From NCBI RefSeq assembly GCF_028276765.1, contig NZ_JAPYVU010000006.1, positions 1 to 49,887 of the forward strand: a stretch of 49,887 nt of DNA. Direction: 5' to 3'. Both the position numbers and the translations under genes were made by a program. Under the pieces are notes generated by a model, which did not search any database, had not been told where the DNA came from, and saw only the letters and a list, made by a program, of their open reading frames with translations. This DNA is from Sulfurihydrogenibium sp. (GTDB taxonomy: Bacteria > Aquificota > Aquificia > Aquificales > Hydrogenothermaceae). Below, piece by piece: positions 2,599 through 45,191 of the stretch (position 1 is its first letter; each line of letters begins with the position of its first letter).

Positions 2599-4134
2599 TT
2601 ATTCCCATTCTATGGTTGCAGGTGGCTTTGAAGAGATGTCATAAACTACTCTATTAACACCTTTTACTTCGTTAATTATTCGTCTCATCATCGTGTCAAG
2701 TAGATCATACGGAAGCCTTGCCCAGTCAGCTGTCATTCCGTCCGTACTTTCTACTGCTCTGATTGCTATAACTTTCTCGTAAGTTCTATAATCTCCCATT
2801 ACTCCGACTGTATGAATTGGCAGTAAAACTGCAAAAGATTGCCATAAATCTTTATAAAGTCCTGCTTTTTTAATTTCTTCTAAAACTATTGCATCTGCTT
2901 CTCTTAAAATATTTAAATCATTTTCATTTACTTCACCAATTACCCTTATAGCCAAGCCTGGTCCTGGGAATGGTTGCCTGTAAATAATCTCTTCTGGCAA
3001 TCCAAGCTCTTTACCAAGCTCTCTTACTTCATCTTTGAATAACTCTCTTAGCGGTTCTATAAGCTTTAGGTTCATTCTCTCCGGTAGCCCGCCAACGTTA
3101 TGGTGAGTTTTAATAACTGCCGACGGTCCTTTGACTGATACGCTTTCTATAACGTCTGGGTACAATGTGCCCTGAACTAAGTATTCTACATCTTTTAATT
3201 TTTTCGCTTCTTCTTCAAAGACTTCTATAAAAAGATTGCCGATTATCTTTCTTTTTTGCTCCGGGTCTGTAATTCCTTTTAATGCCTTTAAAAATCTATC
3301 TTTTGCATCTACTACTATTAATGGAATATGGAAATTGTCTCTAAATGTTTTTTCTACCTGTTCTCTTTCACCTTTTCTCAAAAGTCCATTGTCAACAAAG
3401 ATGCAAGTTAAATTATCTCCAATCGCATTATGAACCAAAACCGCAGCAACGGACGAATCAACGCCACCAGACAAAGCACAGATTGCTTTTTTGCCACCTA
3501 CCATTTTTCTTATTTCAGCCTGCTTTTCCATTAAGAAATTGCCCATAGTCCAATCTTGTTTACATTTACAAATTCTGACTGCAAAGTTTTTCAGCATTTC
3601 TTTACCAAGAAGTGTATGGCTTACTTCCGGATGAAACTGAACGCCCCAAATTTTCTTTTCTTTGTCTCTTACGGCCGCATAAGGTGCGTTAAACGTTCTG
3701 CCGATTACTTCAAAACCTTCGGGTAGTTTTACTACTTTATCTGCATGACTCATCCAAACTTGTGTATAGTGTGGAATATTGCAAAAAAGGTCTTCATGGT
3801 CTAAAACTTCTAACTCAGCTTTACCATACTCATGCTTATCAGCCTTTATTACCTCTCCACCGAAATGATGTGTTATAAGCTGAAGTCCATAACAAATTCC
3901 AAGAATAGGTAAACCTAAATCATAAACTTTTTCATCCGGCTTAGGTGCATCAGGCTCATAAACAGAAGCAGGACCACCAGAAAATATTATTCCTTTTGGA
4001 TTATGTTTTAGAATCTCTTCTACTGATGCGTTAAACGGCAAAATCTCGCTGTAAACGTTTAATTCTCTTACCCTTCTTGCTATTAACTGGGTGTATTGAG
4101 AGCCAAAGTCTAAAATCACTATTCCTTGATGCAT
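2599..4134 (-). CDS. guaA: GMP synthase (glutamine-hydrolysing)
   Basis: Converts XMP, ATP and glutamine to GMP in the cytoplasm. At 511 residues it has normal family length. The N-terminal class I glutamine amidotransferase holds the nucleophile Cys81 (GICYG) and the His168/Glu170 pair (QFHPE). The ATP-pyrophosphatase domain follows with the P-loop SGGVDSS (222-228). The C-terminal dimerisation domain ends in the usual PPATIEWE. It sits between the flagellar block and the patatin gene. I see no purine riboswitch-like leader: it is preceded by the small gene at 4204-4455, so expression probably comes from upstream. Identity is secure. Confidence 0.98.
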
Positions 4135-41343: not shown

Positions 41344-41534
41344 ACCTCGGGTGATAAATTAGCGGTTTTTATAGAATTTAAAAAAAGATCCTTGGGATTT
41401 CGTCCTCAAGATGACGAAGAAAACTTAATCGAAGAAAGCTTAATAATCGTATATTGAACCAGAGACAACCCTATTTGTCATTCTACAGCCGGCTAAGAAT
41501 CTCACGTTTTTAACGAATTTCTTACCCGACGTAT
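41344..41534. repeat. Class A MITE-like repeat upstream of the IS1595-type remnant
   Basis: About 190 bp. The left end ACCTCGGGTGATAAATTAGC and right end GAATTTCTTACCCGACGTAT are inverted. The inner arms are AGATCCTTGGGATTTCGTCC...TCAAGATGACG and GTCATTCTACAGCCGGCTAA...GAATCTC. Its last bases (GTATG) supply the ATG at which the transposase frame opens. Confidence 0.75.
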
Positions 41535-42083
41535 GAATTTAGTAGAATTACTACAGGTAGCATCATCAGAAGAAAAAGCAGAGGAATTTTTAAGAGAATG
41601 GAGTGTTAGAAAAGACAGTATTCTTAAAGATTTAAAAACTCCATTCTCTAAATTTATATTGGCTGTAAAACTATTCATCCTTGAAGCTGCTGCTCATAAA
41701 GCACATAAAGAGCTTGATTTAGCTTACAATACTACGCACAAAATCTACATAAAACTTAGACAGTGTATATACAAATTTGTCTCAAAAGATGAGCAGCTTT
41801 TATCAGGAGAAGTAGAAATGGATGAAAGCTATTTTGGAGGAAAAAGGAAAGGCTATAGAGGAAGAGGAGCAAAGAATAAAATTTCTGTGTTTAGAATTCT
41901 TGAAAGAAATGGAAAAGTCAAAGTTGAGATAGTAAAGGATGTATCTGCTGAAAGAGGCTACTAAAATTTCATGGTGTAAGTAAGGATAATTTTATTTACT
42001 ATCTAAAAGAGCTTGAATTTAGGTATAACCTTAGGGATAATATTGATGATAGTTTGTATAAATGTTTAGGTGGAATAAATTGA
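41533..42083 (+). pseudogene. IS1595-family transposase with an internal out-of-frame deletion
   Basis: The first part (41533-41964, 143 codons) reads 'LVELLQVASSEEKAEEFLRE', a helix-rich N-terminus, and the DDE-domain start VEMDESYFGGKRKGYRGRG, typical of ISXO2/IS1595 transposases. After DVSAE the frame breaks. From 41952 a different frame gives KRLLKFHGVSKDNFIYYLKE then LEFRYNLRDNIDD, the usual C-terminus, stopping at 42081-42083. The stretch between, which should hold the second catalytic Asp and the final Glu/Asn, is gone (about 70 codons by comparison with intact members as I remember them). No ribosome-binding site precedes the ATG. Not functional. Confidence 0.8.
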
Positions 42084-42314: not shown

Positions 42315-42363
42315 TGCAACATACTATGCAACATTTTTAAAGCATGCAACAGTTTTTGCAACA
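42315..42363 (+). promoter_or_regulatory. Four TGCAACA boxes, probable enhancer for the sigma-54 activator
   Basis: TGCAACA occurs at 42315-42321, 42327-42333, 42345-42351 and 42357-42363. The offsets are 12, 18 and 12 bases, so two pairs with the same internal spacing are set 30 bases apart, close to whole helical turns. They lie 56-120 bases upstream of a sigma-54-type promoter, the usual range for activator sites. The likely binder is the product of 43593-45191; that link is inference. Confidence 0.6.
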
Positions 42364-42418
42364 TCTTAGTCAAGGCTTATTTCATAATTAATATCATTTT
42401 ATCAAATACTTAATGTGA

Positions 42419-42435
42419 TTGGCATGAAAATTTCT
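42419..42435 (+). promoter_or_regulatory. Sigma-54-type promoter of the DUF2173 operon
   Basis: TTGGCATGAAAATTTCT fits the -24/-12 pattern (TGGCAYG, 4 bases, TTGCW) with one departure: TTTC in place of TTGC. The gap between the GG and the final C is right. It is 38 bases before the ATG at 42473, which has AGGAGG upstream. Confidence 0.6.
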
Positions 42436-42472: not shown

Positions 42473-42814
42473 ATGGCAATTTTATCAAAGTTGCACGAGT
42501 TAATGTCGTTGCCTGGAGCAGTTGCAGCAGGAGAATTTTCTGAAGATGGAAGACTTTTGTCCTACACTGGGGACATTTCAGAAAAGGCTGCAGAAATAGC
42601 TGCATTGATGGCTGCAGCTAACAGAGCTATGGGAAACATGCAAGCTAAAGGTTGGAGCGCGTATACAGGTAAAGAAGGATTTTATCCTGTTCAAGGTTTT
42701 GCAGTAGCGGGTGGAAAATATGCTGCATGCATCATGGGAAATGTCGGAGTTTTTGTTGAGCTTTCAAAAGCTGACTTTGACAAAACTTTTGAAGTTTTAA
42801 GCAAGTACGTTTAA
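42473..42814 (+). CDS. DUF2173 / roadblock-like protein, copy 1
   Basis: 113 residues from the ATG preceded by TAGGAGGTG. A small cytoplasmic alpha/beta protein with 'MSLPGAVAAGEFSEDGRLLS', 'AAANRAMGNMQAKG' and 'KYAACIMGNVGVFVE'. It matches the DUF2173 family as I recall it, whose fold is compared to roadblock/LC7 and profilin-like domains and which is known mainly from chemolithoautotrophs. No catalytic residues are evident. It is the first gene behind the sigma-54-type promoter, with a near neighbour paralogue 16 bases downstream. The function is unknown. A strong ribosome-binding site and the leading position suggest high expression. Confidence 0.75.
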   Translation: MAILSKLHELMSLPGAVAAGEFSEDGRLLSYTGDISEKAAEIAALMAAANRAMGNMQAKGWSAYTGKEGFYPVQGFAVAGGKYAACIMGNVGVFVELSKADFDKTFEVLSKYV

Positions 42815-42830
42815 TTAGGAGGTGGGTAAA

Positions 42831-43157
42831 ATGGCAGACCTAAAAAATTTAATGTCAATCAAAGGTGTTTTTGCAGCAGGCGAATTTAATCCAGATGGCA
42901 CACTTGTAGCTTACGAAGGAGATATAACTGAAGAAGAGGCAGCAATGGCAGCTGCAATGTGTGCAGCAAACAACGCAATGGCAAAAATGCAAACAGACGG
43001 ATACACTGCATTTTCTGGCCAAGAATGGACTCCATTACATGGCTGGGCATTGACAGGTCCTAAATATTCAGTTTGTGTTGCAGGTAATGTTGGTGTATTC
43101 GTTAAAAACGATGAAGTTTCATTTAAGGAAGTTTTTAAAGCCCTTCTTTCTAAGTAA
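42831..43157 (+). CDS. DUF2173 / roadblock-like protein, copy 2
   Basis: 108 residues from an ATG with AGGAGGTGG upstream. It is a clear tandem paralogue of the preceding protein: MSIKGVFAAGEFNPDGTLVA, 'YEGDITEEEAAMAAAMCAAN', 'NAMAKMQTDGYTAFSGQEW' and 'KYSVCVAGNVGVFVKNDEVS' align along the full length. The pair could form a heterodimer, as roadblock-fold proteins often do; that is inference. It is followed by a GC-rich hairpin (43171-43189) before the next gene. It contains three Cys, two in the region around Met-Cys-Ala-Ala-Asn and Val-Cys-Val. Confidence 0.75.
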   Translation: MADLKNLMSIKGVFAAGEFNPDGTLVAYEGDITEEEAAMAAAMCAANNAMAKMQTDGYTAFSGQEWTPLHGWALTGPKYSVCVAGNVGVFVKNDEVSFKEVFKALLSK

Positions 43158-43212: not shown

Positions 43213-43593
43213 ATGGCAAAATTCTTATCTGAAGAATGGATACAATTATACAAAGATGAATGGAATAAAAATGATAAGCTTGTTAATGATTTGAAAGGGT
43301 TTACTGCGTCTATAAAGTATTTTATAGAAGGAAAGGAAGATGAAGCTGTTGAGCTTATAGTTGAAAATGGAGTTGCAAAATCTGCCGGAAAAGCTGATAA
43401 TAAAAAATATGATTTTGAGATGTGGGCAACATACGATAACTGGAAAATTTTAGCCAAAGGTGAAATGGGACCAAAGGCTGCAATGCTTACTAAAAAATTA
43501 AAATTTAAAGGCTCTATGATTACAGCCATGAAATACATGGGACCTTTTGAAGAAAGCTTAAGAATGATGGGTAGAGTTCCTACAGAGTGGTGA
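43213..43593 (+). CDS. SCP2-like (sterol carrier-type) protein
   Basis: 126 residues with AAAGGAGTAG upstream. The pattern of an N-terminal helix, a beta sheet and C-terminal helices, with 'GVAKSAGKADNKKYDFEMWA', 'YDNWKILAKGEMGPKAAMLT' and 'KKLKFKGSMITAMKYMGPFE', matches bacterial SCP2 domain proteins, which bind hydrophobic ligands in a tunnel. No signal peptide, so cytoplasmic. It lies between the DUF2173 pair and the sigma-54 activator, whose ATG overlaps its stop. A lipid or hydrophobic-substrate link for this operon is possible. Ligand unknown. Confidence 0.75.
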   Translation: MAKFLSEEWIQLYKDEWNKNDKLVNDLKGFTASIKYFIEGKEDEAVELIVENGVAKSAGKADNKKYDFEMWATYDNWKILAKGEMGPKAAMLTKKLKFKGSMITAMKYMGPFEESLRMMGRVPTEW

Positions 43594-45191
43594 TGATGGA
43601 TTTAGACCTGCTTGATAATTTATCAACTGGTGTAATATTTGTTGATAAAAATAAAGAAATAAAATACGTAAACAAAACTGCAAAAGATATTTTGAATATA
43701 AAAGAAGGTCAGTCTTGTAAAAACTTAAAAGTGTTTGATATCTGTGAAAAATGTCCAATAGATTATTATAATAAACATTCAACATTCCCAGAATTTGAAG
43801 ATTTTAATATAACTTTAAGCTGCTGTTCTAAAAAAGTTTGTTACAGTTTTAAACCTGTTTTTGAAAATGGAGAGTTTGTTGGAATAATTGAAGAGATTAG
43901 AGATTCAACAAAAGTTAATCAGTATATAGAAATCATAAAAAGAGAAAAAGAATTTAGTCATTTAATCTTAGATTCTGTAATTGACGCTATTATCGTTGTT
44001 GATAATCAAGGGAAAATAATAAATTACAATCAAAACGCAAAAAATCTACTATGCAGAGAAGTAGATATTAAAGGAATGGATTTAAGTTTGCTTATAAAAA
44101 AGGATTTAAAAGAGCTTCCTTCTTCAAGAGAAGACATTGTCATTGAAACACCTGCATACGGTAAGATAAAAGTTTCAGCTATATTTACAAGGTTAAAAAG
44201 TGGCGAGGGGAGCATATTCTCATTTTATGTCGTTCCAGACTGTATGCTGTCGCAAGAAGCTGCAAGTAATAAATCCAGACTTATCACTAAAAGTAGTTTA
44301 ATGACATATGTTTTAGATATTGCTAAAACTGTTGCCGATACAACCGCAAACGTTCTATTGGAAGGAGAATCCGGAACCGGTAAAAATGTTCTTGCGAAAT
44401 ATATTCACAATCAGTCTTCAAGAAGAGATAAGCCTTTTGTAAAGATAAACTGTGCTGCAATACCTGATAATCTATTAGAAAGTGAACTTTTTGGGTACGT
44501 TAAAGGTGCTTTTACAGGTGCAGTAAAGGACAAGCCTGGAAAAGTAGAGCTTGCTGATGGTGGGACTTTATTTTTAGATGAAATAGGAGAGTTGCCTATA
44601 TATTTACAATCAAAACTTTTACATCTAATTCAAGATAAAGAATTTGAAAGACTTGGAGACACAAAAACAAGAAAGGTTGATGTTAGAATCATTGCTGCAA
44701 CGAACAAAGACCTAAGCCAGCTTGTGAAGGAAGGTAAATTTAGAGAAGATCTGTATTACAGGCTGAAAGTAATTTCAATAAAAGTTCCAGCACTAAGAGA
44801 AAGAAAGGAAGATATTCCGTTTTTGATAAATTACTTCATAGATTTATATTCAAAGCAGTACAATAAACATATAAAAGGTATATCTCCGGAAGCAGTAAGG
44901 CTACTTCTTGATTATGACTATCCGGGTAATATCAGAGAGTTAGAAAATATCATAGAACGGGCTGTAATTTTAGCAAAAGGGAAGCTTATAGAAGTTTCAG
45001 AACTTCCGGATGAGGTAGTATACAATACGAAGATTTTAACGCAAAATAATCTTGATGAAGAGATTGATGAAAAACAAAAAATATTAAGAGTATTAGAAAG
45101 TGTAAACTGGAATAAAAGTAAAGCTGCAAAAATTTTAAATATAGATAGGGTTACTTTATGGAGAAAATTAAAAAAGTACGGGTTAGTATAA
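43593..45191 (+). CDS. PAS-domain sigma-54-dependent activator
   Basis: 532 residues from the ATG that overlaps the SCP2 stop (TGATG); a GTG two codons earlier is possible. Residues about 1-110 form a PAS domain with six Cys (42, 51, 54, 77, 78, 83), including CxxC and CC-x4-C, suited to a metal, haem or redox sensor. A second PAS lies at about 118-220. The AAA+ domain has GESGTGKN (Walker A, about 258-265), GAFTGA (about 305-310, sigma-54 contact), [10 protein letters not shown] (Walker B) and [20 protein letters not shown]. The C-terminal helix-turn-helix is Fis-like ([20 protein letters not shown]). There is no receiver domain. It probably activates its own operon. Confidence 0.92.

Follow-up and report, generated by a model that had tools for sequence, protein, structure and literature searches.

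Paired TGCA-cored boxes as a probable enhancer of a conserved sigma-54 operon encoding DUF2173 proteins in Sulfurihydrogenibium and related genera

Four exact copies of the heptamer TGCAACA lie within 49 bp of each other, ahead of a predicted sigma-54 promoter, in a genome whose closest named relative is Sulfurihydrogenibium yellowstonense (Aquificota). What purpose does this array serve, and which protein reads it? The array was found in a stretch of 49,887 nucleotides (the window), where all four boxes are on the plus strand: box 1 (TTGCAACA, 42315-42321), box 2 (ATGCAACA, 42327-42333), box 3 (42345-42351), and box 4 (TTTTGCAACA, 42357-42363), the last with one mismatch to the palindrome TGTTGCAACA. 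The start-to-start spacings are 12, 18, and 12, so that boxes 1 and 2 make up one pair and boxes 3 and 4 another, with box 3 starting 30 bp (about three helical turns) after box 1. From the end of box 4 to the TGG of the -24 element (TGGCATGAAAATTTCT) there are 56 bases. An earlier note, written from the DNA letters of this locus, had described the 12-18-12 spacing, the 30-base period near three helical turns, and the 56-base gap, and each of these was recovered exactly.

The four-box array is not a product of chance. TGCAACA occurs 16 times on both strands of the window, where 5.7 ± 2.3 occurrences are expected, and no other non-trivial 7-mer in the window is repeated as often within so short a stretch. 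In 200 simulated windows (first-order Markov), a 49-bp stretch held at most 2 same-strand boxes, and the maximum for any non-trivial 7-mer was 3 in 60 simulations vs. 4 in the real sequence. The paired pattern TGCAACA-N5-TGCAACA is present at only three places in the 1.75-Mb genome, namely the two pairs of the window and one site on contig C69, while a reversed control pattern has no match in the whole genome.

The array precedes an operon whose genes all lie on the plus strand. It encodes two DUF2173 proteins, D1 (42473-42814; Pfam PF09941, E = 3.6e-38) and D2 (42831-43157; PF09941, E = 3.9e-41), an SCP2-domain protein (43213-43593; PF02036, E = 2.3e-12), and a sigma-54 activator or bEBP (43593-45191; Sigma54_activat, E = 2.2e-73; HTH_8, E = 9e-14), which is the proposed ligand of the boxes. 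The operon is present in many relatives, usually with the activator as its last gene. According to Pfam matches and alignments, the activator has an N-terminal PAS-type region, an AAA+ domain with a Walker A motif and a GAFTGA loop, and a Fis-type HTH; Pfam gives no receiver domain for it, with PAS-type matches found instead. In alignments of 15 and 21 activators, Cys41, Cys50, Cys53, and Cys82 (numbered from the ATG at 43596) are invariant, and the recognition helix, R-x-T-L-W-R, is nearly so. The four cysteines fall in the PAS-type region (43596-44240) and are a possible site for a metal, an Fe-S cluster, or a persulfide. No conclusion here rests on the AlphaFold model of the activator (pLDDT 72). 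The model of D2 (pLDDT 83) has an alpha-beta-beta-alpha-beta-beta-beta-alpha order of elements, which is that of roadblock proteins, and its best Foldseek matches are roadblock/LC7 proteins, although these are weak and none reaches E 0.001; for D1 the same order is assumed from its paralogue. A sequence search for a solved structure related to DUF2173 found none. Judging from these weak matches, the fold of the DUF2173 proteins (42473-43157) may be roadblock/LC7-like. Contig C69 has, on its minus strand (L040, approximately 2700-3750), an incomplete second copy of the operon, in which D2 is identical, D1 is 96% identical, SCP2 is truncated, and no activator match is present. In this copy boxes 3 and 4 are intact and boxes 1 and 2 have decayed.

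The boxes are conserved wherever this operon was compared. Exact TGCAACA or TGTTGCA sequences were counted in the 140 bp preceding the -24 element in 38 promoters of the DUF2173-DUF2173-SCP2-activator operon, with dinucleotide shuffles as the control. This set contains 98 exact boxes vs. 2.5 expected, with one or more in 38/38 promoters and two or more in 34/38, counts which overstate independence in that the set includes close relatives and does not represent 38 independent events. The spread of the boxes over many genera in two families holds regardless of those relatives. The earlier note had reasoned that absence of the boxes from orthologous operons would speak against a role as an enhancer, and the opposite was found. 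Of 60 adjacent centre spacings, 23 are 11 bp and 14 are 12 bp, the remainder being mainly 7-8 and 18-20 bp, and 36 of the 38 promoters have an 11-12 bp pair when one mismatch is allowed in one box. The distances between boxes follow the helical repeat (mean cosine of 0.53 at 10.5 bp, vs. 0.02 ± 0.07 for random gaps). The first box tends to lie near 87 bp from the -24 element across orthologues, and across the 38 promoters the boxes keep their distance to the promoter (sd 10.9) better than their distance to the ATG (sd 23.6). In two loci (L101 and L112), boxes and promoter have shifted upstream together, with the -24 element 134-150 bp before the ATG.

Conservation also bears on whether the repeats could be the remnant of a mobile element, or some generic repeat, with no regulatory role. 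A broken transposase gene of the IS1595/ISXO2 type does lie about 350 bp upstream of the boxes (41533-41964), which speaks for such an origin. However, the boxes keep their position relative to the promoter in many genera despite unrelated upstream sequence, and their spacing and orientation vary. A mobile-element origin is thus ruled out by conservation, and the reading as a whole is vanishingly improbable.

The promoter itself is a -24/-12 element (TGGCATGAAAATTTCT, 42420-42435, plus strand) with a good -24 half, its TGG beginning at 42420, and a weak -12 half. Such an element is found in 38/38 operon promoters, most of them with the canonical TTGC at -12; the -12 half departs from consensus in this species (TTTC) and in its nearest relatives. 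The strength of the promoter in the window is uncertain, as its -12 half lacks the consensus GC. The sigma-54 gene, rpoN (Sigma54_DBD), is on contig C24 of the same genome. By geometry, the box centres lie at approximately -129 to -87 relative to the start, within the usual range of an upstream activating sequence (UAS), roughly 80-150 bp upstream. A sigma-70 promoter over the same bases (TTGGCA-TATAAT, spacing 14) was considered and rejected, being poor and, by eye, not the conserved part. Between the last box and the -24 element is a putative IHF/HU-like bending site (TATCAAATACTTA, 42400-42412, plus strand), which contains an exact match to the IHF consensus WATCAANNNNTTR. An exact match is found in the same interval in 10/38 promoters, the window included (vs. 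0.45 in dinucleotide shuffles), and a match within one mismatch in 24/38 (vs. 6.6); three rearranged control patterns of the consensus showed no enrichment in the 38 promoters. Four HU/IHF-family genes are present in the genome.

How would the boxes be read? The earlier note had contrasted these direct repeats with the usually inverted sites of NtrC-type activators, and had suggested that they may mark a different binding mode. That contrast falls away on inspection of the core: TGCA is self-complementary, so the TGCA-N8-TGCA of the window is a direct and an inverted repeat at once, and the same holds for the TGCA-N9-TGCA of the NtrC consensus TGCACCAnnnTGGTGCA (PMC8743547). Nor do the orthologues call for a separate mode, as they use direct, inverted, and fully palindromic (TGTTGCAACA) boxes at the same spacing. 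Among 37 pairs at 11-12 bp, 18 are in the >> arrangement, 2 are <<, 3 are ><, and 14 include one or two complete palindromes. This mixture at constant spacing indicates that orientation is not the constrained feature, and a same-orientation rule was rejected on the same grounds. In the orthologous promoters the opposite flank of TGCAACA prefers TGT, which makes the box a degenerate palindrome.

Alternatively, each TGTTGCAACA-like box could by itself be a full dimer site, or be touched by a single HTH of an activator hexamer. Many orthologues have full 10-bp palindromes, in agreement with this reading, and some have third boxes 7-8 bp from their neighbour, which counts against a simple model of one dimer per pair and resembles the core distance of the LuxO UAS TTGCAWWWTGCAA (PMC10162802). 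On the other hand, the near-universal element is the 11-12 bp pair, and the minimal second target described below consists of a single 12-bp pair. By the geometry of Fis, two dimers of this type would not fit side by side on palindromes 11 bp apart. The single-box reading keeps some weight and is the less probable one. We favor the pair as the unit.

Which protein reads the pairs was approached by asking where else they occur. In 41 related genomes, searched for the direct and both inverted pair arrangements, with the fetched matches outside the operon checked for coding frames, box clusters outside coding sequence are confined to genomes with the activator or with a broken or contig-end remnant of the operon. 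The remnants are those of two genomes with broken activators (G019 and G040) and one in which a contig end interrupts the operon (G001). In G040, a box cluster persists on contig C30 (L059, approximately 1501-2360) despite a broken activator and the loss of the DUF2173 and SCP2 genes, which marks an operon in decay; in G019 (L056) the genes are broken and the GG of the -24 element is mutated (TAGCAT). All fetched box pairs outside the operon are inside ORFs, with the exception of the second target. Genome G031 is informative in that its activator is unlinked from its DUF2173 operon (683 kb vs. 1,100 kb) and instead lies behind genes for a molybdopterin oxidoreductase (sulfite-dehydrogenase-type) and a small haem-binding protein (L221, 915-4029). 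The promoter of its DUF2173 operon and its flavocytochrome-c sulfide dehydrogenase (FCSD) cluster are both still boxed, a correlation which favors this activator as the ligand, acting in trans.

Boxes could still be bound by another regulator, such as a different bEBP or a repressor, with the bEBP of the operon acting elsewhere. Matches in the genome include at least five other bEBP homologues, one of which ends in a similar helix (PATLWRK vs. RVTLWRK). Against this, box presence tracks the operon activator across the 41 genomes, including unlinked G031, and the activator gene is within the boxed operon in most genomes, which leaves another regulator quite improbable. The earlier note had judged the array to be in the right place for an activator enhancer, and the presence of boxes in 38/38 promoters together with their co-occurrence with the activator supports this. 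The ligand of the boxes is very probably, as judged from these comparisons, the activator encoded at 43593-45191.

The earlier note had proposed a search of the genome for 12-spaced TGCAACA pairs near sigma-54 promoters; beyond the window, this yielded only the operon copy on C69. Six other sigma-54-like sites of the genome (four intergenic and two in ORFs) have no box pair. Exact direct pairs are limited to the operon, its incomplete copy on C69, and a coding frame of contig C28, exact inverted pairs are absent, and one-mismatch pairs at 12-bp spacing are in ORFs, so a wider regulon in this genome was rejected on these genome-wide checks, which are pattern searches. One canonical sigma-54-like site (TGGCACAAAGTTTGCA; L255, C50:2822-2837) has no boxes; it immediately precedes a gene that weakly matches Rieske proteins, and a further bEBP gene lies upstream of it.

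The second target suggests what the activator may control. Three genomes of a single genus (G025, G027, and G031) have a box pair of spacing 12 at 54-55 bp from a -24/-12 element (L151, 2990-5095; L152; L158), with a mismatch in one of the two boxes in G031. This promoter is upstream of a Rieske gene that adjoins FCSD flavoprotein genes. The Rieske protein has weak SoxL2 and arsenite-oxidase small-subunit matches, below the NCBIfam cut-off, and orthologues of its gene in other genomes are without boxes. A DUF2173-domain gene is strongly induced by sulfur in Sulfolobaceae (PMC11323534). Taken together, the Rieske/FCSD target and the sulfur-induced DUF2173 gene point to control of sulfur oxidation. 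The activator probably senses a sulfur compound through its PAS region, where the four invariant cysteines lie; it counts against a sulfur sensor that none of the genes adjacent to the operon in the window is a sulfur gene.

These data support a model in which the boxes are the UAS of the DUF2173-DUF2173-SCP2-bEBP operon promoter and in which the bEBP encoded by the last gene is their ligand, a reading we hold with considerable confidence. The enhancer reading in particular is strongly supported by comparative evidence from the orthologous promoters. The unit would be two TGCA-cored boxes in any orientation (core TTGCAA/TGTTGCAACA), separated by one helical turn (11-12 bp), each such pair being bound, in this register, by a dimer of the Fis-type HTH. 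In the window, the activator would occupy two such units, 30 bp apart and on the same face of the DNA. Bending by an IHF/HU-like protein at 42400-42412 would then bring the activator ring into contact with the sigma-54 polymerase at 42420-42435, and the activator would drive its own operon in response to a sulfur compound sensed through the PAS region and its four invariant cysteines. A more speculative proposal, and an unlikely one, is that of an orientation-indifferent enhancer, in which HTH units of the activator ring would dock in any orientation on 2-4 self-complementary, TTGCAA-cored boxes along one face of the DNA, with the four-cysteine PAS sensor controlling sulfur oxidation in the Aquificota. 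Were boxes read in this way, enhancers could evolve by gain or loss of single boxes.

Neither this site nor this activator is described in the literature searched, which has little on how sulfur oxidation is regulated in Aquificota and in which a single paper mentions DUF2173. No sigma-54 site matching TGTTGCAACA, TGTTGCA, or TGCAACA came up in the portions of text returned, where matches looked like primers or unrelated sequence. The present analysis adds a defined operator, a probable activator, a conserved operon whose DUF2173 proteins are uncharacterised, and, in one lineage, a second target in sulfide oxidation, and turns a formerly obscure family into a testable and possibly sulfur-responsive circuit. 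The approximately 38 natural variants of one enhancer, differing in box number, spacing, and orientation, also form a data set on how far a sigma-54 enhancer tolerates rearrangement.

Among known systems, the sites of E. coli NtrC are similar in that TGCA cores about one turn apart are paired upstream of a -24/-12 element and are bound by the Fis-type HTH of an AAA+ activator with a GAFTGA loop. The NtrC consensus TGCACCAnnnTGGTGCA is TGCA-N9-TGCA (PMC8743547), with cores 13 apart as opposed to 11-12 bp in this operon, and it has an obligatory CC/GG inverted flank where the present boxes have AACA on either or both sides; the pairs of the window read TGCAACA-N5-TGCAACA and differ from the inverted consensus TGCACC-N5-GGTGCA. 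NtrC family proteins proper are response regulators with an N-terminal receiver, whereas this activator has a PAS-type sensor and no receiver. The UAS of LuxO at Vibrio qrr promoters (TTGCAWWWTGCAA; PMC10162802) likewise has TTGCA/TGCAA words in two sites upstream of a sigma-54 promoter, but with a core distance of 7 bp in place of 11-12 bp as the main unit, and LuxO is a response regulator. The window, with its core distance of 12, departs from this UAS, and only the third boxes of some orthologues form core pairs at 7 bp. FisR is a sulfane-sulfur sensing sigma-54 activator with sensor cysteines and a link to sulfide oxidation, features which the present activator may share. The tetH (tet) operon of Acidithiobacillus ferrooxidans is regulated by sigma-54 through a two-component response regulator and comprises other target genes (PMC5506826). 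It has a predicted IHF site upstream of -24, as does the operon described here, and likewise a sigma-54 activator gene beside an operon for sulfur-compound oxidation (PMC5506826).
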